From NCBI GenBank assembly GCA_002839505.1, contig PGYE01000001.1, forward strand, positions 523,995-587,994: a stretch of 64,000 bases of DNA, written 5' to 3'. A model generated the notes under the pieces. That model worked only from the letters and a program-made list of their open reading frames with translations, was not told where the DNA came from and did not search any database. A program made the position numbers and the translations under genes. Source of the DNA: Candidatus Peregrinibacteria bacterium HGW-Peregrinibacteria-1 (GTDB lineage: Bacteria > Patescibacteriota > Gracilibacteria > UBA1369 > LOWO2-01-FULL-3). Positions 45,107-56,523 of this stretch are shown here, piece by piece (within the stretch, counting starts at the first letter, position 1; every line of letters starts with the position of its first letter).

Positions 45107-45973
45107 CTAGAATTCGTAATCAATCAATCTTATCAAGTTTTTAATCTGCTGATGATACTGTTTTGGATAGGAGAAAGCGTATATTAACTGGTCGAACCTT
45201 ACAATTAGGAACGCTACAGTTTCGCGGTTACTGTCATTAACATAGAAAGAGGCACTCGCAAACTCGTTAGTCTGGTTAATGATGGTACCTAGATTCCTTT
45301 CCGACTGCGTTTTTATCGTCTCAAAAGTAGTGGTGGCATCGGCCAATGGACTCAACTCAAAAAAGTAAATCTTCAAAAAGGCCTGATCATTTTCAGAAAC
45401 GGAAAACTTCTTCAGATTCACATTGCGCAGATCACCCACATAAATATTCTTAAACAAATACCCCTTAGCATCCTCTTCACTTAGCACCGCCTTAGGAAAA
45501 CCAGCACTTCTTATCATCTCCTCGCGGACATAAACATTAACATCGGCAACACCAAAACCCACATCCTCAAAATCCGAAGCACCAATCGTTTCCGCCGTAT
45601 TAATTGCATTGTTTGCCGTCGTTATCAGATCATCAAAAATATTAGTCCCTCCCAGATCCACGGGATTGCTTTCGACGATAATCTCCGGCCCCTGATCATC
45701 TACCACAGTAATAAGATCGATCTCTCCCGATCCGTTACTTTCCTCCCCCACAAATGTAACATCCTCTCCTTCAGCTTGCGCTTCACCGGTACCTCGTACT
45801 ATTCCCTCAATAAAACCCATCTCCTCCCCCAAACTTCCCGGTAAATTATCAAGTGAGGTCCCAAATATATTAGCCCCCAATTGGTCCAATTGGTTCTTGT
45901 TAGCCGCAATTTCCATAGCAACTATGGAAACGATAACCAACGACAGGAATGTAAAAATAGTGATTTTCTTCAA
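45107..45973 (-). CDS. Membrane-anchored protein of unknown function inserted between nusG and rplK
   Basis: 288 aa. Single N-terminal signal/anchor helix (ITIFTFLSLVIVSIVAMEIA), a long acidic, disordered-looking region (residues ~35-110), then a folded domain (LKIYFFELSPLADATTTFET, RETVAFLIVRFDQLIYAFSY). No family recognised. A terminator at 46053-46077 separates it from nusG upstream. It breaks the usual secE-nusG-rplK-rplA order. Confidence 0.78.
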   Translation of the reverse strand: MKKITIFTFLSLVIVSIVAMEIAANKNQLDQLGANIFGTSLDNLPGSLGEEMGFIEGIVRGTGEAQAEGEDVTFVGEESNGSGEIDLITVVDDQGPEIIVESNPVDLGGTNIFDDLITTANNAINTAETIGASDFEDVGFGVADVNVYVREEMIRSAGFPKAVLSEEDAKGYLFKNIYVGDLRNVNLKKFSVSENDQAFLKIYFFELSPLADATTTFETIKTQSERNLGTIINQTNEFASASFYVNDSNRETVAFLIVRFDQLIYAFSYPKQYHQQIKNLIRLIDYEF

Positions 45974-46107: not shown

Positions 46108-46653
46108 TTATTTGTTTTTAATCTGTGTAAAGTCCAACTCTACTGGTGTCTCTCGTCCAAAGATCGTAATCAATACCTTCACCTTACCCTTCTCTTCATC
46201 AATATTGCTGATATTCCCCTCATAGTTTGCAAAAGGTCCGTCCAAGATAACGACATTATCATTTTCACTGAAATTAATTTTAAATTTAGGCTCAGCCTGA
46301 CCCATGTGCTTCTTAATCACTTTCCATTCTTCTGGCTCAACCGGCACCGGTATATTTCCTGACCCCACAAATCCCGTAACATTCGGAGTATTTCTTACTG
46401 CATACCAACTATCATCCGTAACAATCATGTCCACCAAAACATATCCAGGGAAGATTCGTTTCTCCTCCGTAACCGGCTCACCTTTTTTTATCACTATTTG
46501 TGTTTCCTTCGGCACAACAACATCAAAAATAAGATCCTGCATCCCCAAAGATTCAATACGCTGCATCAACGCCTCTCTCACCGCATCCTCATATCCTGAA
46601 TAAGTATGAATTACATACCAATGTCTACCTGTATCGGCTGCTTGTCTTCCCAT
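46108..46653 (-). CDS. nusG: Transcription termination/antitermination factor NusG
   Basis: 181 aa. NGN domain WYVIHTYSGYEDAVREALMQ, IFPGYVLVDMIVTDDSWYAV and RNTPNVTGFVGSG, then the KOW domain NDNVVILDGPFANYEGNISN ... KVKVLITIFGRETPVELDF. Couples RNA polymerase to ribosome or Rho. Twelve bases downstream of secE. Confidence 0.96.
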   Translation of the reverse strand: MGRQAADTGRHWYVIHTYSGYEDAVREALMQRIESLGMQDLIFDVVVPKETQIVIKKGEPVTEEKRIFPGYVLVDMIVTDDSWYAVRNTPNVTGFVGSGNIPVPVEPEEWKVIKKHMGQAEPKFKINFSENDNVVILDGPFANYEGNISNIDEEKGKVKVLITIFGRETPVELDFTQIKNK

Positions 46654-46665
46654 GAAAGTCTAAAG

Positions 46666-46860
46666 TTATTTAATGAAATTAAAGAACAGATTAAAAAGAT
46701 AATCTATCCCTGTCAGAGCCAAAACGGTTAATCCACAGAAGATTAAAACAATAATGGTCATTTTAACTGCCTGATTCTTAGTCGGCCAAGAAACTCTTCG
46801 TAGTTCCTCCAAACTTCCCTTAAGATAGCTCACCAACTGATTGCTCTTTGTTTCTTTCAT
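46666..46860 (-). CDS. secE: Preprotein translocase subunit SecE
   Basis: 64 aa from ATG at 46860 (MKETKSNQLVSYLKGSLEEL); longer readings to 46911 are unlikely. RRVSWPTKNQAVKMTIIVLI is the SecE amphipathic helix plus start of the single transmembrane segment. Part of SecYEG. Confidence 0.92.
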   Translation of the reverse strand: MKETKSNQLVSYLKGSLEELRRVSWPTKNQAVKMTIIVLIFCGLTVLALTGIDYLFNLFFNFIK

Positions 46861-46946
46861 AAGTAATTTAAAGATAAGTCTAAAAAGCGTCTTCGCTTCG
46901 ATCAAATACAAATTTATACCTTAGACTGGCAGAAAGCAAGATAAAA

Positions 46947-46955
46947 TGGTAAAAT
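46947..46955 (+). promoter_or_regulatory. Extended -10 promoter of the VirB2-like cluster
   Basis: TGG followed by TAAAAT (46950-46955). The same TGG-box arrangement (TGGTATAAT) precedes the 1587-aa gene. Confidence 0.45.
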
Positions 46956-46987: not shown

Positions 46988-47959
46988 ATGCTCAACAAAA
47001 TCCTGTCCAACAATATTTTACAACCAATAATCGTTGTCCTAATCATGGCGATCGCTTTAGTATTCCAAAATGGAATCTTAGCTTTTGCCGCAAGCAGCAT
47101 TCCACTCGACGGGCAGGTCTTTACCGAAAGCGGACTCCCTACTCCACCGGGCGAAGGAACCGATGGACAGGTAATAGCCGTCCAGCTCGCCTTTGGCGCA
47201 TTAAAATATGCGAAGGCGCTCACCGTCGTACTTGGAATACTTTTTGTCACAATACTCGGCCTGCAAATGGTGATGGCCAACGGTAATGAAGAGGATATCA
47301 CAAAATCCAAGAGGGGACTTATATACATGATCATCGCCTTCTTGTTGATCAGTATGTCTCAAGATCTCGCCAAAATATTTGATCAATCGGGATCGACAAT
47401 TCTCGCTGGCGGTCAATCAATTCTCAACAGGGTCAACCTTTTCTCGAAACAGGTGGAAATATTAATGGTACTAATAAAGATACTGCTTGGAGGTATCGCC
47501 TCACTTATGCTGGTGCGATCTGGAGTTGGGTTTGTAGTATCGGGAGATAGTGAGGAGGACAATACCAATTACAAAAAGGGCATATTTTTTAGTTCAATAG
47601 GTCTTATCATGATTTTCATCGGAGATATCTTCATTAATAGAGTATTCTACAAAGTGGACCAAAACCTGTATTCCGGTATAAGCGGCGTGCAGCCTGGAGT
47701 CGATGTCAAGGAAGGAGTAGAGCAGCTTGCCGGTATTGCCAACTTCATCGTCACACTGATCGCTCCTCTTGCCTTTATCATGCTGATCGCCGGATCAATC
47801 ATTTATGTTACATCCGGTGGAAACGAAGAAAACACCGAAAAAGGAAAAAGAATTATCATTGCGACAGTTATTGGTATTATAGTCGTATATGGGGCCTTTG
47901 CCTTTGTCAGCACCATTATTAACAGCAGACTTACCGAATTGGGAACAATTGTCACATGA
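46988..47959 (+). CDS. Triple VirB2/TrbC-like membrane protein I
   Basis: 323 aa from ATG at 46988; an ATG at 46946 overlaps the -10 box. Signal peptide (LQPIIVVLIMAIALVFQNGI ... AFAAS), then three copies of a two-helix unit joined by a charged loop: copy 1 with ANGNEEDITKSKRGLIYMII, copy 2 with SGDSEEDNTNYKKGIFFSSI, copy 3 with SGGNEENTEKGKRIIIATVI followed by GAFAFVSTII. The loop N/D-E-E-x-x-x-K-x-K-R/K is the hallmark of VirB2/TrbC-type pilin-like hairpins. Stop overlaps the next start by four bases. Function inferred: membrane or pilus component. Confidence 0.8.
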   Translation: MLNKILSNNILQPIIVVLIMAIALVFQNGILAFAASSIPLDGQVFTESGLPTPPGEGTDGQVIAVQLAFGALKYAKALTVVLGILFVTILGLQMVMANGNEEDITKSKRGLIYMIIAFLLISMSQDLAKIFDQSGSTILAGGQSILNRVNLFSKQVEILMVLIKILLGGIASLMLVRSGVGFVVSGDSEEDNTNYKKGIFFSSIGLIMIFIGDIFINRVFYKVDQNLYSGISGVQPGVDVKEGVEQLAGIANFIVTLIAPLAFIMLIAGSIIYVTSGGNEENTEKGKRIIIATVIGIIVVYGAFAFVSTIINSRLTELGTIVT

Positions 47960-48945
47960 AAAAACAACTCATAAAAATCGGCTCAACAATATTTCTATCA
48001 CTCGTTATTACACTTTTTTCATCAACGAGTATTATTATTGCAGCCCAGCCGACAACCGACGCCCCGCTTGTCATCGAAAGCATCAATAAAGTCGGCGATG
48101 TAGTACCAAATTGGCCGGATTTTCAATTTGGACAACACCCGGATGCTCCGCCAAATTACGGACAGGACGGGATCGGTGTCGCAACCAGCCCGATATTTTT
48201 TGCCATCGATCTCCTAAAACTGGTACTGGGAACCATTGCCTTTATCATCGTAGTCATCGCTGCAATCTCACTCGTCGTAAGAAACAGTGAGGAGGAATAC
48301 ACCAAAGCCAAAAGATCTATGATTTGGGGGCTTGTTGGGCTCTTAGTTGTGCAGTTAGCCGACACATTCGTCCGAGATGTCTTTTTTGGCGACCAAGGTG
48401 AGATATTACAAAATCAAGCCACTGCCGAGCTATTTGGAAGAGAAGGGCTAGCTCAAATGAGAGGAATTATCGGATTCATTGAAGTCTTTATCGGAATTAT
48501 TGCCGTGCTTGTCATTATCTATCGAGGTATTAGATTGATATCCAGCGTTGGGGATGAAAACGAGCTTACTACCACCAAGCGACACTTAGTCTTTGCGGTC
48601 GGAGGACTTATCCTGGTTATTCTCTCTGAGGTGATTATCCGCGGAGTTATTTTCCCAGATGCCGGAGCAGCACTTCCCGACACTCAGCGCTTCAGTTTTG
48701 TTGTAGTTGGCCTTGCCAACTTTATGGCTGGATTTATTGCGCTTTTTGCCTTTGTGATGCTTGTTTATGGCGGATATCGTTATGTCACCATGCCCTTCAA
48801 CGAACAAGAAACTGAAAAGGTCAAAAAAATCGTTGTAGCCGCCATTATAGGAATTATTATTGCCATGGGAGCTTTCGCCTTTGTGAACACCGTAATCAGG
48901 CTGGATGACGCCCCCGACATCCCCGGAGAAGAAACACCAGTCTAA
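47956..48945 (+). CDS. Triple VirB2/TrbC-like membrane protein II
   Basis: 329 aa, same plan as its neighbour: signal peptide (FLSLVITLFSSTSIIIAAQP) and three two-helix units with loops NSEEEYTKAKRSMIWGLVGL, VGDENELTTTKRHLVFAVGG and FNEQETEKVKKIVVAAIIGI, the last closing with GAFAFVNTVI. Starts within the previous stop (ATGA), so translational coupling. The two probably arose by duplication and may form a hetero-oligomer. Confidence 0.8.
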   Translation: MKKQLIKIGSTIFLSLVITLFSSTSIIIAAQPTTDAPLVIESINKVGDVVPNWPDFQFGQHPDAPPNYGQDGIGVATSPIFFAIDLLKLVLGTIAFIIVVIAAISLVVRNSEEEYTKAKRSMIWGLVGLLVVQLADTFVRDVFFGDQGEILQNQATAELFGREGLAQMRGIIGFIEVFIGIIAVLVIIYRGIRLISSVGDENELTTTKRHLVFAVGGLILVILSEVIIRGVIFPDAGAALPDTQRFSFVVVGLANFMAGFIALFAFVMLVYGGYRYVTMPFNEQETEKVKKIVVAAIIGIIIAMGAFAFVNTVIRLDDAPDIPGEETPV

Positions 48946-48958
48946 CATACTCGATCTT

Positions 48959-48988
48959 TTGACTAAAATGGTGGATTCATGGTATAAT
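48959..48988 (+). promoter_or_regulatory. Promoter of the giant PKD protein gene
   Basis: TTGACT at 48959-48964 and TATAAT at 48983-48988 with TGG before it; 18-base spacer. The start codon lies 20 bases downstream. Confidence 0.7.
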
Positions 48989-49008
48989 TTCGGGATAAAA
49001 TTAAATTC

Positions 49009-52000
49009 ATGAACAAAAAAATAAAAATACTCATTGGGTTATTGGCAGCAATCATCGCCTTAATTGCCTTATTTGCAATGCCTTCAGGGGTTCACGCTGC
49101 AGACGGATGGGACTTTTTAAACTCTGTTTTCACCACAAGTGGCAATCAAGGACTTTCATTTACCGACTACCAACCAATTGAAAACCTCACTTTATCGGAA
49201 GACGGCATCAACCCAACCTTGACCCAAAATGACAGCATTCGCGGATTCGTCGTGCAGATTATGAATTTTGCGCTGACATTTCTAGGCTTATTTGCTGTCA
49301 TCATGATCATTTACGGAGGATTCCTCTACCTTGGATCCGCCGGAGAAACCGATAAGGCCGAAAAAGGTCGTAAAGTAATTCAATACTCCGTAATCGGAAT
49401 CATTATCATTCTTGGTGCTTACGCCTTTGTAAACACCATCATCAAAGGGGCCAGTACCGGAGAGGAAACCACGGGCACCAATACCGGACAGCTCGGAGCC
49501 AGCAGTAATGTCGGAGGTAGTTTCAATGCCTCGGCATCACAAGTTTACTCCAGTGCACAAGGCATACCTGGAAGATTTGTCTTCTTTGTCGAAAGTGTCG
49601 AAGAAGTTAAATCCATCGTTCTCGATGCCCAAAAGAGCACATTGAACACCCCCCCGACGGCAGGTTCCAGTGTTAATGACATGACTCGTGAAAACATATA
49701 CCTACAAAACGTAAGCTCCTTCTTAAACACACTTCGCCAGAAACTTCTCAACATGCGATCCCGAATATCCTCGTTCTCTAGCGCCTACATCCGCATCAAT
49801 GAAATAATCAATGAAATCGAGATTTTAAGTGACCAGTTGGCCAACTCCTTTCAAGCAAACAACGCCCCAGGGACCGACTATTTTGCTCCGTGGGTAGAAT
49901 TCAAGAACAACCTTATCGACCCGAATGAAAACAACACCAAATCGCTGGCACATATCTTATCTGCCGTCAAAGACAACTATGTTGCGGAAGTCATCGGTAA
50001 AATAATTGAGGTCCAAGCCATCAACCAAGAACTATTTGGAATTCAAGCCGCCGAAGAAGGCCGCATATCCGACATGTACACAGGAATGGTAAACGCCTAC
50101 GGAATCAATTTAAGCAATCTCAACTCTTCAGGAGCATCAGGACAATATTGCAGCATGACTAGCGGGGGATTTTTAGGAGCCGTTTGCGCACTCAACATCA
50201 ACTCATCAGCCACTGAAATTGACCAGGCCGGCCGCCTTCTTCTTACCGCTTTGACCAGACAAGTAGAGTTATCAAAAGCCATTGCCACGCTGGAAGCCGT
50301 ACAGGTAAGACTAAGGGCATCCACAGTGAATGGCAACGCACCACTCATCGTCAACTTCAATGTCCTTGAAACCGTTGATCCTGCCGGTGGAACGATACTT
50401 GGAAGCAACATAATTTGGGACTTGGAGGGACTGACCACAGTAGGCGGAACATCGGTTGCCACAAGAGACACCAATATAGTGAACTGCGAAATCCCGAGCG
50501 GCAACGAAGATGAAGACTTCTTTGGCACAGTATTCCGTAAATGTACCTTCAAACGACCAGGAGTATACACCGCCAAAGTCCTAGTGAAATCCAACGACCC
50601 CAACCGTTTTGTACCGGGGCAAAGCACCATCACCATTAAAGTCGACCCACCAAACACACAATTAAATCTAAATATAAACCTACCGGGACAAGAACCGATC
50701 AATGTCATGTCATACTACGAAGACATGGGGATTATCAAAACCGATCGCGACTATGTCGCTGTCACACTGGAAGAGGCCAAAAACATTGTTTTTGACGCCA
50801 GCCAGACACGAGACTCCGGCAACATAACATTCAACTGGGATTTCGGAGACACCACCACCTCCGGTAGCGGTGCAACTCAGCCACACCCCTATAATGCCGT
50901 CGGTCGCTACAATGTCACCGTCACCATGATTGATCGCATCGGCAACATTGACCGAAAAACCTTTGTCTTAGATGTGAGAAATGTCGCAGCACGCATCAAT
51001 CTCACGCCGAGCGACGAAGGATTTATCAATCAAAATATCCAATTTGACGGTACCGCCTCCACCACGACAAGTGGAAGTATTAGGGCCTACCAATGGCAAA
51101 TAAGCCGGCTTACCGGAAACCAAGAAGCAATTAATATTGGAGAAAAAGCCAGTCAGTCTCGATTTACTCATCAATTCACCGAAGGGGGACGCTATAGTGC
51201 AACCTTAACCGTAACGGACGCCACTGACAGCATCAGCACCACCCAAGAATTCACCGTTAGATCACAGCCTCCGACTGCCGTAATGGGCTTTGAGCCTCAG
51301 ACACCAAGCACACCTTCGACCATAGTGTTTGACGGGACACGCAGCTTTGATCCCGACGGCACCGACGAATTATCATACCTCTGGACCATAACTCCTGACA
51401 GCCAAGGAGGACGACGCTGGGAATGGGTCAATGGAAGCATCTTTAGCGAAACAATCGACAGCGCCAAACCAATCATCAAATTCAAAGAACGAGGTGACTA
51501 CCAAGTAACACTAAAAGTCACCGATCCATCAACAATCGGAGGCGACCTGAGTGAAGAATCTGGGCAAGTATCAGAAACCATAACAATCGATAATGTCTTA
51601 GACCTCCGCTGGGATGACACCCAAAATGTCACCTCCGTGATCGGCACCGACGGATTAGCCCAATTAAATTTTAGCTTCCATAGTGATAACGCCGTCGCCT
51701 ATCGCGTTGATTTTGGAGACGGAGAACGCGAAGACGGTGAAATAAGAGGCAGCAAAACAGTCAGCCATACTTATGAAAAAGCCGGTAAATACATAGTCAG
51801 AATTACCGCTTATGATGCTCAAGACGACGATGTCACACTAGAACGACGCTTCTTTGTCGGAGATGGAAAAGTACCTATTGCTAAAGCAAAAATATTCCTC
51901 AACGACCAAGAACTCATTGGTGATGAAGAAATAATCACCGTAACCAGAAGAGATATTCTTTATTTCGATGCCAGTGATTCCCGTAATGTTGACGGAACCG

Positions 52001-53772
52001 GACGAAACCTTACCTATTCATGGAATTTCGGCAACACTGTCACCAGCTCAAGGAGGGAAACCACCCACAGCTATCAAGAACTAAGTCCTGCAGATCCAGG
52101 ATATTATATCGTGACTTTGCGAGTTTCAGACACTGATGACCCAAGTAAATTCACCACTGACACACTATATATTAAGGTGGAAACCAAACCGCCGACCTTT
52201 GCTTCGATCCAAGCCACCCCAGCATCTGCCAACCTCACTACTCCTGTCAGCGTCGAAATGAGAGCCATGGACGCACGCGACCCCGACGGAACCATCACAC
52301 AATACAAATGGTGGTACTACAGCCTGAGCAATCCGGAAGAACCGCTAGGCCTACAAATCACATCAACTCCAAGCACCACCCTAACGATCGGCACCAACGG
52401 CATCGAAGGGCAGAATGTCACTTACGGATTTGGTCTTGAAATCACCGACTCCGACGGCATCAAAGTCCTCAGTGAGGACATCTTAAGACCGGCCCAAATC
52501 CCTCAAATCACCGTTACCAATGGCCCCAACGCCCTTCCTACCTCCCAATTCACCGTCAGCTCCAACAATGTTTTTGTCGGAGATAAAGTAGTCTTCAGCA
52601 GTCGATCCACAGACCCTGATGGTAAAGTAATCAAATATATTTGGGATTTCGAAGGAGATGGATTCTTCAACAATGCCCCTACCAATAGCGCCACAGTCGA
52701 GCACATTTATGAGAAACGCAACATTAACGGATATAATGTCCGCTTAAAAGTAATCGACGACAAAGGAGGCGAAGCCACCTCTGACTTTGTAAAAATTTAT
52801 GTTGATAGCCTCTCAAAAAAACCAACAGCCGCCTTTACATTTGAAGCCGTCGCCGGCAGTGAAGGCCGCAGAATTCAGTTCAACAACAACTCCACCTCCG
52901 ATGTTGACTCTGGTGCTCAAATAATTCGTTACGAATGGGATTTTGATAACAACAGCAACCACCCCGGAGCCGACTCCGACGGGGATGGCATCAAAAACAA
53001 CGATGTTGACTCGACAAGCAAAGACCCAAGTCGACTCTACACCAGAAACGGAACCTATGTTGTCAGCCTGAAAGTCACAGACAATCAAGGAAACTCCAGT
53101 GTTGTAACGACTCCAGTTTCCATTCCACTTACCGACGCCCCGGTATCAGATTTTACATACCGCGTAGTTGACGACAGAATCGCCTTTATCAACAGCTCAA
53201 CCCCCAGCGCAACGTCCAAATCAGAAATAACAAGCTACATCTGGGACTTTGACATATATGCCGATAGTGACAATGACGGCATTCCCGACAATGATTACGA
53301 CTCACTACTTAGAAATCCGACCCACACATATCCCGTCGCCGACACCTATCCGGTAAAACTCACCGTCTATGATGCCCAAGGATTTTCAAGCCAAATAGTA
53401 AAATCCGTCAATGCCGGTCCACCGGATTTTGACCCGACAGCTACCGAAAGCAATCCTCTCATACCGTACTTTACCTCCACACCTGCTGCCTCCAGTGATG
53501 GAATTATTTATCTCACCGGAACCAACACTCAGGTCACATTTGATTTCCGTGGCTCACAGGGCGAAATTGCCCGCTACATATTTGATAAAAACATCAATGC
53601 CGACACTGATGGCGATGGCGACCCCACAAATGATATCGACTATCAGACGATACTTCCGGGCACATACACCGCTCATTTTTCTCGCACGACATCACAAATA
53701 GAACTGAAATTCAAAGTCGTTGATACTCGTGGCCGAGAGGAGTTTATCCTTCAAAAAATAGTATTCAGATGA
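49009..53772 (+). CDS. Giant PKD-repeat surface protein with VirB2-like membrane hairpin
   Basis: 1587 aa. Signal peptide (LLAAIIALIALFAMPSGVHA), one VirB2-like two-helix unit at residues ~75-150 (GSAGETDKAEKGRKVIQYSV, then GAYAFVNTII), a helical region to ~430, then about ten to eleven PKD/Ig-like domains with W-D-F-G-D cores and Y-x-V-x-L-x-V ends (for example FNWDFGDTTTSG, KYIWDFEGDGFF). Three late domains have inserted Asp-rich calcium-type loops (ADSDGDGIKNNDVDS, DSDNDGIPDNDYDS, ADTDGDGDPTNDIDY). It presumably projects from the cell surface, anchored by the hairpin. Confidence 0.85.
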   Translation: MNKKIKILIGLLAAIIALIALFAMPSGVHAADGWDFLNSVFTTSGNQGLSFTDYQPIENLTLSEDGINPTLTQNDSIRGFVVQIMNFALTFLGLFAVIMIIYGGFLYLGSAGETDKAEKGRKVIQYSVIGIIIILGAYAFVNTIIKGASTGEETTGTNTGQLGASSNVGGSFNASASQVYSSAQGIPGRFVFFVESVEEVKSIVLDAQKSTLNTPPTAGSSVNDMTRENIYLQNVSSFLNTLRQKLLNMRSRISSFSSAYIRINEIINEIEILSDQLANSFQANNAPGTDYFAPWVEFKNNLIDPNENNTKSLAHILSAVKDNYVAEVIGKIIEVQAINQELFGIQAAEEGRISDMYTGMVNAYGINLSNLNSSGASGQYCSMTSGGFLGAVCALNINSSATEIDQAGRLLLTALTRQVELSKAIATLEAVQVRLRASTVNGNAPLIVNFNVLETVDPAGGTILGSNIIWDLEGLTTVGGTSVATRDTNIVNCEIPSGNEDEDFFGTVFRKCTFKRPGVYTAKVLVKSNDPNRFVPGQSTITIKVDPPNTQLNLNINLPGQEPINVMSYYEDMGIIKTDRDYVAVTLEEAKNIVFDASQTRDSGNITFNWDFGDTTTSGSGATQPHPYNAVGRYNVTVTMIDRIGNIDRKTFVLDVRNVAARINLTPSDEGFINQNIQFDGTASTTTSGSIRAYQWQISRLTGNQEAINIGEKASQSRFTHQFTEGGRYSATLTVTDATDSISTTQEFTVRSQPPTAVMGFEPQTPSTPSTIVFDGTRSFDPDGTDELSYLWTITPDSQGGRRWEWVNGSIFSETIDSAKPIIKFKERGDYQVTLKVTDPSTIGGDLSEESGQVSETITIDNVLDLRWDDTQNVTSVIGTDGLAQLNFSFHSDNAVAYRVDFGDGEREDGEIRGSKTVSHTYEKAGKYIVRITAYDAQDDDVTLERRFFVGDGKVPIAKAKIFLNDQELIGDEEIITVTRRDILYFDASDSRNVDGTGRNLTYSWNFGNTVTSSRRETTHSYQELSPADPGYYIVTLRVSDTDDPSKFTTDTLYIKVETKPPTFASIQATPASANLTTPVSVEMRAMDARDPDGTITQYKWWYYSLSNPEEPLGLQITSTPSTTLTIGTNGIEGQNVTYGFGLEITDSDGIKVLSEDILRPAQIPQITVTNGPNALPTSQFTVSSNNVFVGDKVVFSSRSTDPDGKVIKYIWDFEGDGFFNNAPTNSATVEHIYEKRNINGYNVRLKVIDDKGGEATSDFVKIYVDSLSKKPTAAFTFEAVAGSEGRRIQFNNNSTSDVDSGAQIIRYEWDFDNNSNHPGADSDGDGIKNNDVDSTSKDPSRLYTRNGTYVVSLKVTDNQGNSSVVTTPVSIPLTDAPVSDFTYRVVDDRIAFINSSTPSATSKSEITSYIWDFDIYADSDNDGIPDNDYDSLLRNPTHTYPVADTYPVKLTVYDAQGFSSQIVKSVNAGPPDFDPTATESNPLIPYFTSTPAASSDGIIYLTGTNTQVTFDFRGSQGEIARYIFDKNINADTDGDGDPTNDIDYQTILPGTYTAHFSRTTSQIELKFKVVDTRGREEFILQKIVFR

Positions 53773-53836
53773 TCAAACTTTCTTTTTTATCCGTTTGCTT
53801 TTAAAATAAAAAAGAATTTAAGTAACCTCACGCCTC

Positions 53837-56065
53837 ATGACCAATGAAAACAACAATAATTATCAAGACTTTGAGCTGGGAGGAGAAGAACCCACTCCTA
53901 AAATAAATGATTACAGCCAAAATCAAGATTCTGCCGACAAAACCGGCGGAAAAATTGAAATTGATCCTACCGGAACACCACCAACCGATTCCACACTCTT
54001 AAATACCGTCAAAACCACCCCTGAACCCAAAAAAGATCTCAAGAAAAAAAAGCCCCGCAAAGCCCTACTCGGATGTCTTGGATTTATCGGCGCCTTGATC
54101 CTCGGATACCTTATTTTTGCCTTTGTGATGATCAACACCGGCTCTGTCGACAACCCTCCTGCCATCGCCAGAATATTAGATTTATCATACGCCTCGTTTA
54201 TTAACGGACTCGTAGCATCGATCAGCATAATATTTCTACTTTTTGCCGCCGTTCCTCTCGTTTTGACTATTATTGCCTTGATCAAATTTGCGACTTCCAA
54301 AAAAGATGATAAGGCAGGTAAAAAAGGAGCTATCAAAAAGACGATAATTTTTGCATCAATCTTTCTCGCTTCAATGATAATTTGGCTCTTCTTATTTTTA
54401 CACCTTGATGGCAAAAGAGTCTCCGAGACACCAGAAATACCCGATGCCATCGTCACAATACCTGAAGACACGCTAGGGCTCACAGCCCCAATCGAAGTCC
54501 GCTTCGAAGCATTAAACCTCCCAATAGATGAGCGCCAATACCAGAAAATATCCTACACCTGGGACTTTGGTGACGAATCCTTTGGTACCAGCCCGATCAC
54601 AACCCATCTTTACACTAAGAAAGGTCGGTTTGATGTCATTTTGACCGTCACATATCGTGACCGGCAAACCGACGAAGAGCTAACCAGCCAATTCACTAAG
54701 ACAGTTGTTGTCGAATATCAAGCCATTACCGCCGACTTCACATTTTCTCCCGAGGAAGGAGCCGCACCACTCGAAGTAACATTTGACGCCTCCGATTCGG
54801 TAAACCCCGATGGTAGAATTGGAAGATATGAATGGGACTTCACTAATAATGGCATCTTTGATGACGCCGAAGGCATCACCACCAAGCACACCTTTGATGC
54901 CACCGGAGTATATCCAATATCATTAAGAGTAATCTCTTCGGCCAGTGACGACCAATTTGATGTCATCACCAAGTCGATAGTTGTCGGAGAACAACAAGAA
55001 TTCACCGCGGACATTGAAATTACCAACGAATCCTCCGATTTTTTCACTGGAGTAAGCTATATCTTCAAAGCTGAAAACGCCACCTCTCCCAACGGAGAAG
55101 TCATTGGCTACAGCTGGGACTTTCAAGACAAAACCACCCCGGTAAACTCTCGTACAACCTCCCATTCATTCAGCACTCCTGGGAACTATGAGGTTGCACT
55201 GACACTCAGAGATTCCACCGGAGAAGAGGCCATTGTTACAAAACAAATTGCAGTTAAGAGCCCTGCCGGAGCACCTACAGCAGTAATCAAAACCACACCC
55301 GCAAAAAGCGGAACCACACTTAGCGGAAAAACTCCTTTGCAGGTCTCATTTAGTGCCACCGACAGTACCGACACCAACAATGATATAGTTGATTACCAGT
55401 GGGATCTTGACGGTGATGGTGAGATCGACCATTTTGGCCAAAATGTCAGCTACACATACACCTCAACCGGCACCTACAACGCTCAATTGATCGTTACCGA
55501 TGCTACCGGCAACGAGGATAGCGAAACAGTCACAATTACTGCCACATCACAGGGGATCACCGCCGATCTCAAAACAGATCGCGTAGATGGCAATGTTCCA
55601 CTTACCGTCGCCTTTGATGCCAGTGGCTCTCGTTATCCCGAGGGCCAAATCACCAGCTATCACTGGAATTTTGGCGATGGGACATCTCCCAAGCTTGGAG
55701 CGTCCAAAATCAACCACCGATTTGATAGTATCGGCACCTACACGGTCACTCTCAGAGTTATTGGATCTGATAACACCACTGACACCATCACTCGCACCAT
55801 CACTGTTCGCGAAGTACCTCTGACCGCCTGCTTCTCAGCTGTTTTTGCCTCAGGTAAAGCTCCTTTGACAAACACCTTCGACCCAAGCTGTAGTACCGGA
55901 ACCGTCAAAAGCTATTTCTGGACCTTTGGCAATGGCAACAGCTCAACTGATGTCAAACCGACCCACACCTTTGTCAATCCCGGTCAATACACTGTCACTC
56001 TTGAAATTCAGGACAATGACAACACAGTTAGCACAACTACCAAAACTATAACCGTCACCAACTAA
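53837..56065 (+). CDS. Membrane-anchored PKD-repeat protein
   Basis: 742 aa. Polar, Pro/Lys-rich cytoplasmic N-terminus (~75 residues), three transmembrane helices (LLGCLGFIGALILGYLIFAF, SISIIFLLFAAVPLVLTIIA, TIIFASIFLASMIIWLFLFL), then six PKD domains (cores YTWDFGDESFG, YEWDFTNNG, YSWDFQDKT, YQWDLDGDGE, YHWNFGDGTS, YFWTFGNGNS). No signal peptide; the PKD part should face outside. Stop codon overlaps the next start (TAATG). Probably works with the preceding giant protein in adhesion or surface structure. Confidence 0.87.
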   Translation: MTNENNNNYQDFELGGEEPTPKINDYSQNQDSADKTGGKIEIDPTGTPPTDSTLLNTVKTTPEPKKDLKKKKPRKALLGCLGFIGALILGYLIFAFVMINTGSVDNPPAIARILDLSYASFINGLVASISIIFLLFAAVPLVLTIIALIKFATSKKDDKAGKKGAIKKTIIFASIFLASMIIWLFLFLHLDGKRVSETPEIPDAIVTIPEDTLGLTAPIEVRFEALNLPIDERQYQKISYTWDFGDESFGTSPITTHLYTKKGRFDVILTVTYRDRQTDEELTSQFTKTVVVEYQAITADFTFSPEEGAAPLEVTFDASDSVNPDGRIGRYEWDFTNNGIFDDAEGITTKHTFDATGVYPISLRVISSASDDQFDVITKSIVVGEQQEFTADIEITNESSDFFTGVSYIFKAENATSPNGEVIGYSWDFQDKTTPVNSRTTSHSFSTPGNYEVALTLRDSTGEEAIVTKQIAVKSPAGAPTAVIKTTPAKSGTTLSGKTPLQVSFSATDSTDTNNDIVDYQWDLDGDGEIDHFGQNVSYTYTSTGTYNAQLIVTDATGNEDSETVTITATSQGITADLKTDRVDGNVPLTVAFDASGSRYPEGQITSYHWNFGDGTSPKLGASKINHRFDSIGTYTVTLRVIGSDNTTDTITRTITVREVPLTACFSAVFASGKAPLTNTFDPSCSTGTVKSYFWTFGNGNSSTDVKPTHTFVNPGQYTVTLEIQDNDNTVSTTTKTITVTN

Positions 56066-56166
56066 TGAAGAAAAAAAACACACTCGTCAAAGCCATCGCA
56101 ATATTTGCTATCCTCGGACTAATTTTAATCTCAATCGCTCCGGTAATACCGGCCCTATTTTCATAA
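56065..56166 (+). CDS. 33-aa single-helix membrane peptide
   Basis: MKKKNTLVKAIAIFAILGLI and a further ISIAPVIPALFS. One transmembrane helix with a basic N-terminus. It starts on the last base of the previous stop (TAATG), so it is translationally coupled to the PKD protein, and ends 9 bases before the next gene. Possibly an assembly or stabilising subunit. Confidence 0.65.
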   Translation: MKKKNTLVKAIAIFAILGLILISIAPVIPALFS

Positions 56167-56175
56167 AACAAAAAA

Positions 56176-56523
56176 ATGTCTCAAGAAACAAACCAAAACA
56201 CCACTATCAGGCGCCCTCAGATCAAACATGTTTACGGATTCAGTCGTGGCCTGGCAATTGCCCTTATTGCCCTAGCGGCAGGACTTTTCTTCATGCTAAA
56301 GGACTTTGAGTTCAATGGAAGTAATCGCTACAAAGGACAGCTGCAAAAAATTGAAGACATCAGCATGTACTCTCAGGTAAAACCCCAAACCCAAGCTCAA
56401 GCTAACGAAAAACCCGCGGCAGAAATTTCACCAACCGTACCTCAAGAAGAGCTCGAGCCTCAAGAGACCATTGTCCCCGAAGAATCAGAACCACAAGGAG
56501 TTCCCAGAGGTGTCACTCGTTAA
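56176..56523 (+). CDS. Single-pass membrane protein with disordered tail
   Basis: 115 aa. One transmembrane helix (GLAIALIALAAGLFFMLKDF), then a Gln/Glu/Pro-rich tail (residues ~65-115). Last gene of the PKD cluster; overlaps the convergent nth gene by 11 bases. Function unknown. Confidence 0.75.
   Translation: MSQETNQNTTIRRPQIKHVYGFSRGLAIALIALAAGLFFMLKDFEFNGSNRYKGQLQKIEDISMYSQVKPQTQAQANEKPAAEISPTVPQEELEPQETIVPEESEPQGVPRGVTR

Follow-up and report, generated by a model that had tools for sequence, protein, structure and literature searches.

The window analysed here is a 64,000-nucleotide stretch (C1:523995-587994) of a single-contig genome of 998,424 bp; positions without the prefix C1 are window coordinates. 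On its forward strand, g1 (46988..47959, +) encodes a signal peptide and three pilin-like transmembrane (TM) hairpins, and g2 (47956..48945, +) a second triple-hairpin protein with the same A-A-B order of hairpin types. These are followed by g3 (49009..53772, +), a 1587-aa protein with a signal peptide, a B-type hairpin, a helical domain, and about ten PKD domains, and by g4 (53837..56065, +), a 742-aa protein with a predicted cytoplasmic N-terminus, three TM helices, and six PKD domains. Two single-TM open reading frames (ORFs) close the cluster, one of 33 aa (56065..56166, +) and one of 115 aa (g5; 56176..56523, +), the latter without an assigned family and without evident conservation in relatives. 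On the other side, the divergent genes secE (46666-46911, -) and nusG (46108-46653, -) form the conserved flank that fixes the locus. Relatives with names are Candidatus Peregrinibacteria, Peribacteria, and Gracilibacteria metagenome-assembled genomes, and the group that carries the module consists of largely uncultivated, tiny, probably host-dependent bacteria. Between nusG and rplK lies a gene for a 288-aa single-TM protein (45107-45973, -) with no Pfam match, whose homologues (200-350 aa) occupy the same ribosomal protein operon slot in nearly all relatives; 3' of g4 in this genome, the opposite strand carries nth and a gene for an M23-like peptidase.

The g1 reading frame is open from 46946, but a promoter-like site (46926-46955) runs into the upstream ATG, which makes the ATG at 46988 the more probable start. 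The g1 and g2 genes overlap by ATGA at 47956-47959, and the g4 stop overlaps the 33-aa ORF by TAATG at 56063-56067; these overlaps and the two tiny membrane ORFs at the cluster end lie as the earlier note had described. That note also called the cluster operon-like. A single operon is uncertain: gaps of 63 nt (g2-g3) and 64 nt (g3-g4) interrupt the cluster, and g3 is preceded by a promoter-like site (TTGACT-N18-TATAAT with an extended -10; 48959..48988, +) from which g3-g4 may be transcribed separately. The site agrees with a sigma-70-like consensus at 11 of 12 positions and is identified by consensus match alone.

The Pfam family PF18895 (T4SS_pilin) matches g1 in three stretches (E 4.8e-21, 75 bits) and g2 in three stretches (E 5.6e-17, 62 bits), both against a cut-off of 26.6 bits, and g2 also exceeds the cut-off of 40 for NF045849 (41.6 bits). 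PF04956 (VirB2/TrbC) has no match in g1 or g2 and reaches 12.4 bits on g3, under its cut-off of 27.9; a CPR fusion protein from a relative matches both PF18895 and PF04956 (35.5 and 47.7 bits). In the 337-aa numbering of g1, the hairpins fall at about 74-145 (A type), 156-234 (A type), and 254-330 (B type). An AlphaFold2 model built from 54 sequences has three long-helix hairpins (H74-110/H115-145, H156-198/H203-234, and H254-289/H294-336; pLDDT ~75-93 within hairpins), with a pTM of only 0.50, so that it gives the hairpins and does not fix the packing among them. Foldseek returned nothing at E ≤ 0.001 for either g1 or residues 1-620 of g3, and the pilin profile matched none of the solved VirB2 structures in the PDB; the hits that it did retrieve were dismissed as chance TM matches.

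In profile-profile comparisons, the seven hairpins of g1, g2, and g3 align to each other over 46-69 columns with 97-99.7% probability in all pairings, while control profiles that were reversed, preserving hydrophobicity, reached at most 17%. The earlier claim of three VirB2/TrbC-like two-helix units in each of the two proteins is borne out by these comparisons and by the threefold PF18895 matches; the hairpins are VirB2-like by the T4SS_pilin profile. In a tree of the units, the first two units of both proteins fall into one clade, the A type (80/80 sequences), and the B type comprises their third units, the g3 hairpin, and stand-alone pilins (support 0.70). Across 20 genomes, every g1/g2 unit position except g2 unit 1 forms a clade of its own (five of six), which places the triplication before the order. 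The profile matches and the unit tree show, at the level of sequence, that g1 and g2, in tandem, are each an ancient fusion of three VirB2-like hairpins, ordered A-A-B.

The g3 protein consists of a hairpin at residues 76-147, a helical domain at about 166-430, and then the PKD repeats. PF18895 matches it in one stretch (76-144; 27.1 bits, just over the gathering cut-off of 26.6), and AlphaFold2 likewise gives one helical hairpin. Pfam finds eight PKD_4 stretches and motif inspection 10-11 repeats; PF18911 scores 229.8 and 270.7 bits on the PKD arrays of g3 and g4, above cut-off, and residues 428-549 of the g3 model superpose on the ColG PKD domain (VIA-align, Z ~9, 2.5 Å). This agrees with the earlier description of one hairpin unit fused to about ten PKD domains. 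The g3 hairpin has a mean identity of 51% to stand-alone pilins and 37% to g1/g2 unit 3, is 57% identical to a stand-alone pilin of its own genome (C1:267388), and groups in the unit tree with the stand-alone pilins, not with unit 3. Matches to TIGR00864 (polycystin) and other Ig/PKD families in g3 and g4 were read as ordinary PKD cross-matches.

Along g3, mean pairwise identity is highest in the hairpin (62%), lowest in the helical domain (21%), and 30-49% in the PKD and C-terminal regions. Such conservation of the hairpin is as would be expected for a packed assembly interface. The helical domain is modeled mostly at pLDDT 90-97 (AlphaFold2); a confident model with 21% identity indicates that the fold is kept and the sequence varies, as in a recognition surface, which this domain might be. 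Its resemblance to talin R7R8 or IpaD (VIA-align Z 9-10) was discarded as evidence of kinship, as such a score is normal for any helical bundle. Three DxDGDG-type loops, two of them at well-conserved columns, suggest calcium binding, and the signal peptide and topology place the helical and PKD regions, by prediction, outside the cell. Some distant orthologues (within L055-L059) have a C-terminal TM helix and a short basic tail, absent from the window's family; where present, this helix would tether both ends of the protein, which speaks for a surface complex rather than a long pilus.

For g4, three TM helices and PKD_4 matches in six stretches accord with the three-helix, six-PKD protein described before. 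Its TM2-TM3 hairpin aligns to the pilin units at 9-56% probability (hhalign) against 0.4-5% for the reversed control; as this is weakly above controls, and g4 has no PF18895 match, we do not claim it as a fourth hairpin carrier. A g4 match is found in 44/44 order members that are at least 95% complete, and several relatives have a TM ORF of 32-38 aa at the position of the 33-aa ORF.

A g1 homologue is matched in 60/60 relatives. The order g1-g2-g3(-g4), divergent from secE-nusG, holds in all 20 relatives examined first, with g4 missing from one contig that ends inside g3 and other gaps at contig ends. A scan of genome contigs with g1 alone found nothing, and an alignment of g3 succeeded. The survey also took in 64 further large-g3 loci, some on contigs already among the first 20 relatives. 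Where testable, g2 lies upstream in 61/63 of these, g1 in 56/58, g4 is present in 51/54, and nusG is divergent in 43/46. The gene-neighborhood survey thus reveals very strong linkage: g1-g4 are a fixed module and travel together. With VirB2-like hairpins and conserved linkage both found, neither of the outcomes that the earlier note had named as refuting its reading came about. The tandem triple-hairpin pair also recurs across families of the class, including genomes best read with TGA recoded. One family (L165, L166) likewise has the pair beside nusG, with the gene for a PKD giant of ~2050 aa after it; a second family (L176, L178) retains g4 (E 2e-88 and 2e-80) and has a split g3; and in several others the pair does not adjoin secE-nusG. 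Among 143 genomes sampled across the phylum, no triple pair was seen outside the class, where matches span only one or two units, and the class restriction is a statement about this sample. In several relatives (L048, L052, L053, and L054), the module is followed by genes for large proteins with one TM helix and fn3, FlgD-Ig, or PKD domains.

The same genome encodes VirB4 (C1:786627-788849; NF045971, 365.9 bits, cut-off 325), between gyrB and gyrA and ~215 kb from the module, and PrgI/VirB3 (C1:756569-756835; PF12666, 47.5 bits, cut-off 27); the module has no physical linkage to either. The earlier note's statement that there is no VirB4-type ATPase is thus correct for the window but not for the genome, and its view of the cluster as distinct from a conjugation system, and hence from a type IV secretion system (T4SS), is not supported, given both genes in this genome and VirB4 in 40/44 order members. 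These 40 carry VirB4 with the module, among members at least 95% complete. Two of the four exceptions are 99-100% complete. In three of the four, gyrB, the neighbor of virB4, is missing too, which points to a contig missing from the assembly rather than a missing virB4 gene, and we rejected these genomes as evidence that the module is independent of VirB4. In the fourth (G162), the gyrB locus is present without an adjoining virB4, and this adjacency is not constant in the order. Because the module and VirB4 are both near-universal in the order, their co-occurrence is little informative: with the apparent absences mostly assembly gaps, separateness from the T4SS is not established, and neither is dependence of the module on VirB4. 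For VirB6/TrbL, PF19590 has no match over cut-off in this genome and PF04610 (TrbL) none in this genome and 25 relatives, searches that a divergent protein could escape. These results agree with the literature on Gracilibacteria, where T4SS genes are reported to be dispersed, VirB6 to be scarce or absent, and VirB3/TrsD to be mostly unlinked to VirB4 (PMC12102498).

Several known systems share parts of this architecture. As in Patescibacterial T4SS pilin arrays (PMC12102498, PMC10633639), described as successive pilin genes that commonly lie close to virB4, the module has PF18895 units, tandem pilin genes, and a genomic VirB4; unlike them, it fuses three units per protein, twice, continues with PKD giants, and lies ~215 kb from virB4. 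VirB2/TrbC (PF04956) and Mbov_0395-type pilin-like proteins (NF045849) share the two-helix hairpin, charged loop, and signal peptide, but not the three fused units or the fusion to a 1400-aa ectodomain. With about six TM helices, g1 and g2 are polytopic like VirB6/TrbL and would fill a slot that is empty in Gracilibacteria; unlike VirB6/TrbL, they are built of pilin hairpins and lack a sequence match to it. Very large PKD membrane proteins are also known from Vampirococcus and other Patescibacteria, where host attachment has been proposed, and in the parts of that report available to us they are described without a pilin hairpin or linkage to pilin genes (PMC8080830). NF058578 (CPR_pilus_PamR, "pilus system RbmA-like protein") overlaps weakly with the PKD/Ig region of g3 (35.5 bits) and g4 (25.4 bits), far under its 300-bit cut-off. 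Among distant Patescibacteria, three loci (L213:5222-17415, L214:1699-15051, and L216:7055-15999) encode pairs of a ~670-aa and a 2300-3760-aa protein, each with one N-terminal pilin hairpin; the L213 giant, at the only locus scanned for them, has Big_5-type Ig domains. Since single pilin hairpins begin giant extracellular proteins elsewhere in the phylum (3395 and 3764 aa), the hairpin-mounted giant is, judging by these sequences, a recurrent Patescibacterial design.

We consider it nearly an even chance that the module, at a distance from virB4, encodes class-specific surface components of the Patescibacterial T4SS/VirB2-type pilus. Inserted by the Sec machinery, the hairpins would take up the topology of VirB2, both ends outside and the Lys-rich loop on the cytoplasmic side; g1 and g2 would form a membrane platform where single pilins assemble, replacing a recognizable VirB6; and the g3 hairpin would enter the same pilin assembly. 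The long PKD arm of g3 could then bind the host cell or a host surface polymer, with g4 bracing or docking the complex at the surface and VirB4, encoded elsewhere in the genome, powering it. Polytopic and fixed in the class, g1 and g2 are candidates for the VirB6 slot, an idea that starts from the lack of a VirB6 match. The combined proposal, in which a T4SS platform of fused hairpins (g1, g2) instead of VirB6 carries the g3 adhesin by its hairpin as a dedicated machine for host attachment and delivery with no described counterpart, we regard as unlikely. The literature that we searched, which covered few subscription journals, describes no module of triple-hairpin pilin proteins or of pilin-PKD fusions.

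The more general expectation of the earlier note, a surface or attachment role, is in line with extracellular PKD arrays and with how such proteins are expressed in host-attached Patescibacteria: in archaeon-attached Paceibacteria, T4SS_pilin and PKD genes rank with the most strongly expressed of those for secreted proteins (PMC10936435). Together with the PKD architecture, the host-dependent relatives, and the T4SS of Southlakia epibionticum, which has a pilin array and is essential (PMC10633639), this expression leads us to infer host attachment. Overall, the module probably descends from a T4SS and serves host attachment.

A tentative but real possibility is that the module works without VirB4 or secretion, as a self-standing adhesion complex in which the hairpins are reused as anchors or oligomerization modules and a g1/g2 ring or patch clusters the PKD adhesins g3 and g4. 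The module is physically apart from all T4SS genes found, some g3 orthologues have a C-terminal TM helix, fn3/PKD/FlgD-Ig proteins lie 3' of the module in some relatives, and hairpin-anchored giants occur elsewhere in the phylum with no VirB4 nearby (L213, 3395 aa; L214, 3764 aa; L215, 1239 aa). Set against this, the g3 hairpin is nearly a stand-alone pilin, conserved far beyond what a mere anchor would need, and VirB4 is kept across the order.

We think it improbable that the triple-pilin proteins belong to another membrane machine, such as a type IV pilus or Sec/envelope biogenesis, with the pilin resemblance reflecting ancestry only. Their fixed place beside secE-nusG would suit such a role, as would another PF18895 array of this genome, which, as read from the sequence, has a PilT-like gene and T4P-like genes around it in a type IV pilus cluster, but the divergent orientation and the extracellular PKD cargo do not point to a Sec function, and the pair lies away from secE-nusG in several of the class's other families. 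That the repeats are not truly pilin-like, being hydrophobic hairpins that converged, is already largely refuted and now very hard to credit: two-TM hairpins are readily matched by composition and g3 is just over the Pfam cut-off, but reversed profiles reach at most 17% against 97-99.7%, the seven units match one another over 46-69 columns, and the g1 and g2 scores for PF18895 are far over the cut-off.

To our knowledge, Peregrinibacteria are known almost solely from metagenomes and have no established mode of host contact. This near-universal module is a concrete, testable candidate for their contact apparatus and, in a T4SS/VirB2-type role, would explain how a T4SS can work in a class without a recognizable VirB6. 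The module also presents pilin subunits recast as fused membrane scaffolds and as the base of a giant adhesin.

Further pilin and T4SS-related genes lie elsewhere. The gene for a stand-alone 133-aa pilin that is 54% identical to the g3 hairpin (L062:12248-12649; genome C1:267 kb) lies directly 3' of a MurB-like gene, and many relatives have pilins of 135-145 aa similarly placed after a ~300-aa gene. Five tandem PF18895 pilin genes (L064:14058-16546; C1:909-911.5 kb) lie in an apparent type IV pilus cluster, flanked, as read from the sequence, by a PilT-like gene upstream and genes resembling type IV pilus minor pilins downstream. The gene for an 802-aa protein with one TM helix and without family matches (L151:8224-10632, -) overlaps the end of virB4; this protein is a possible T4SS partner.
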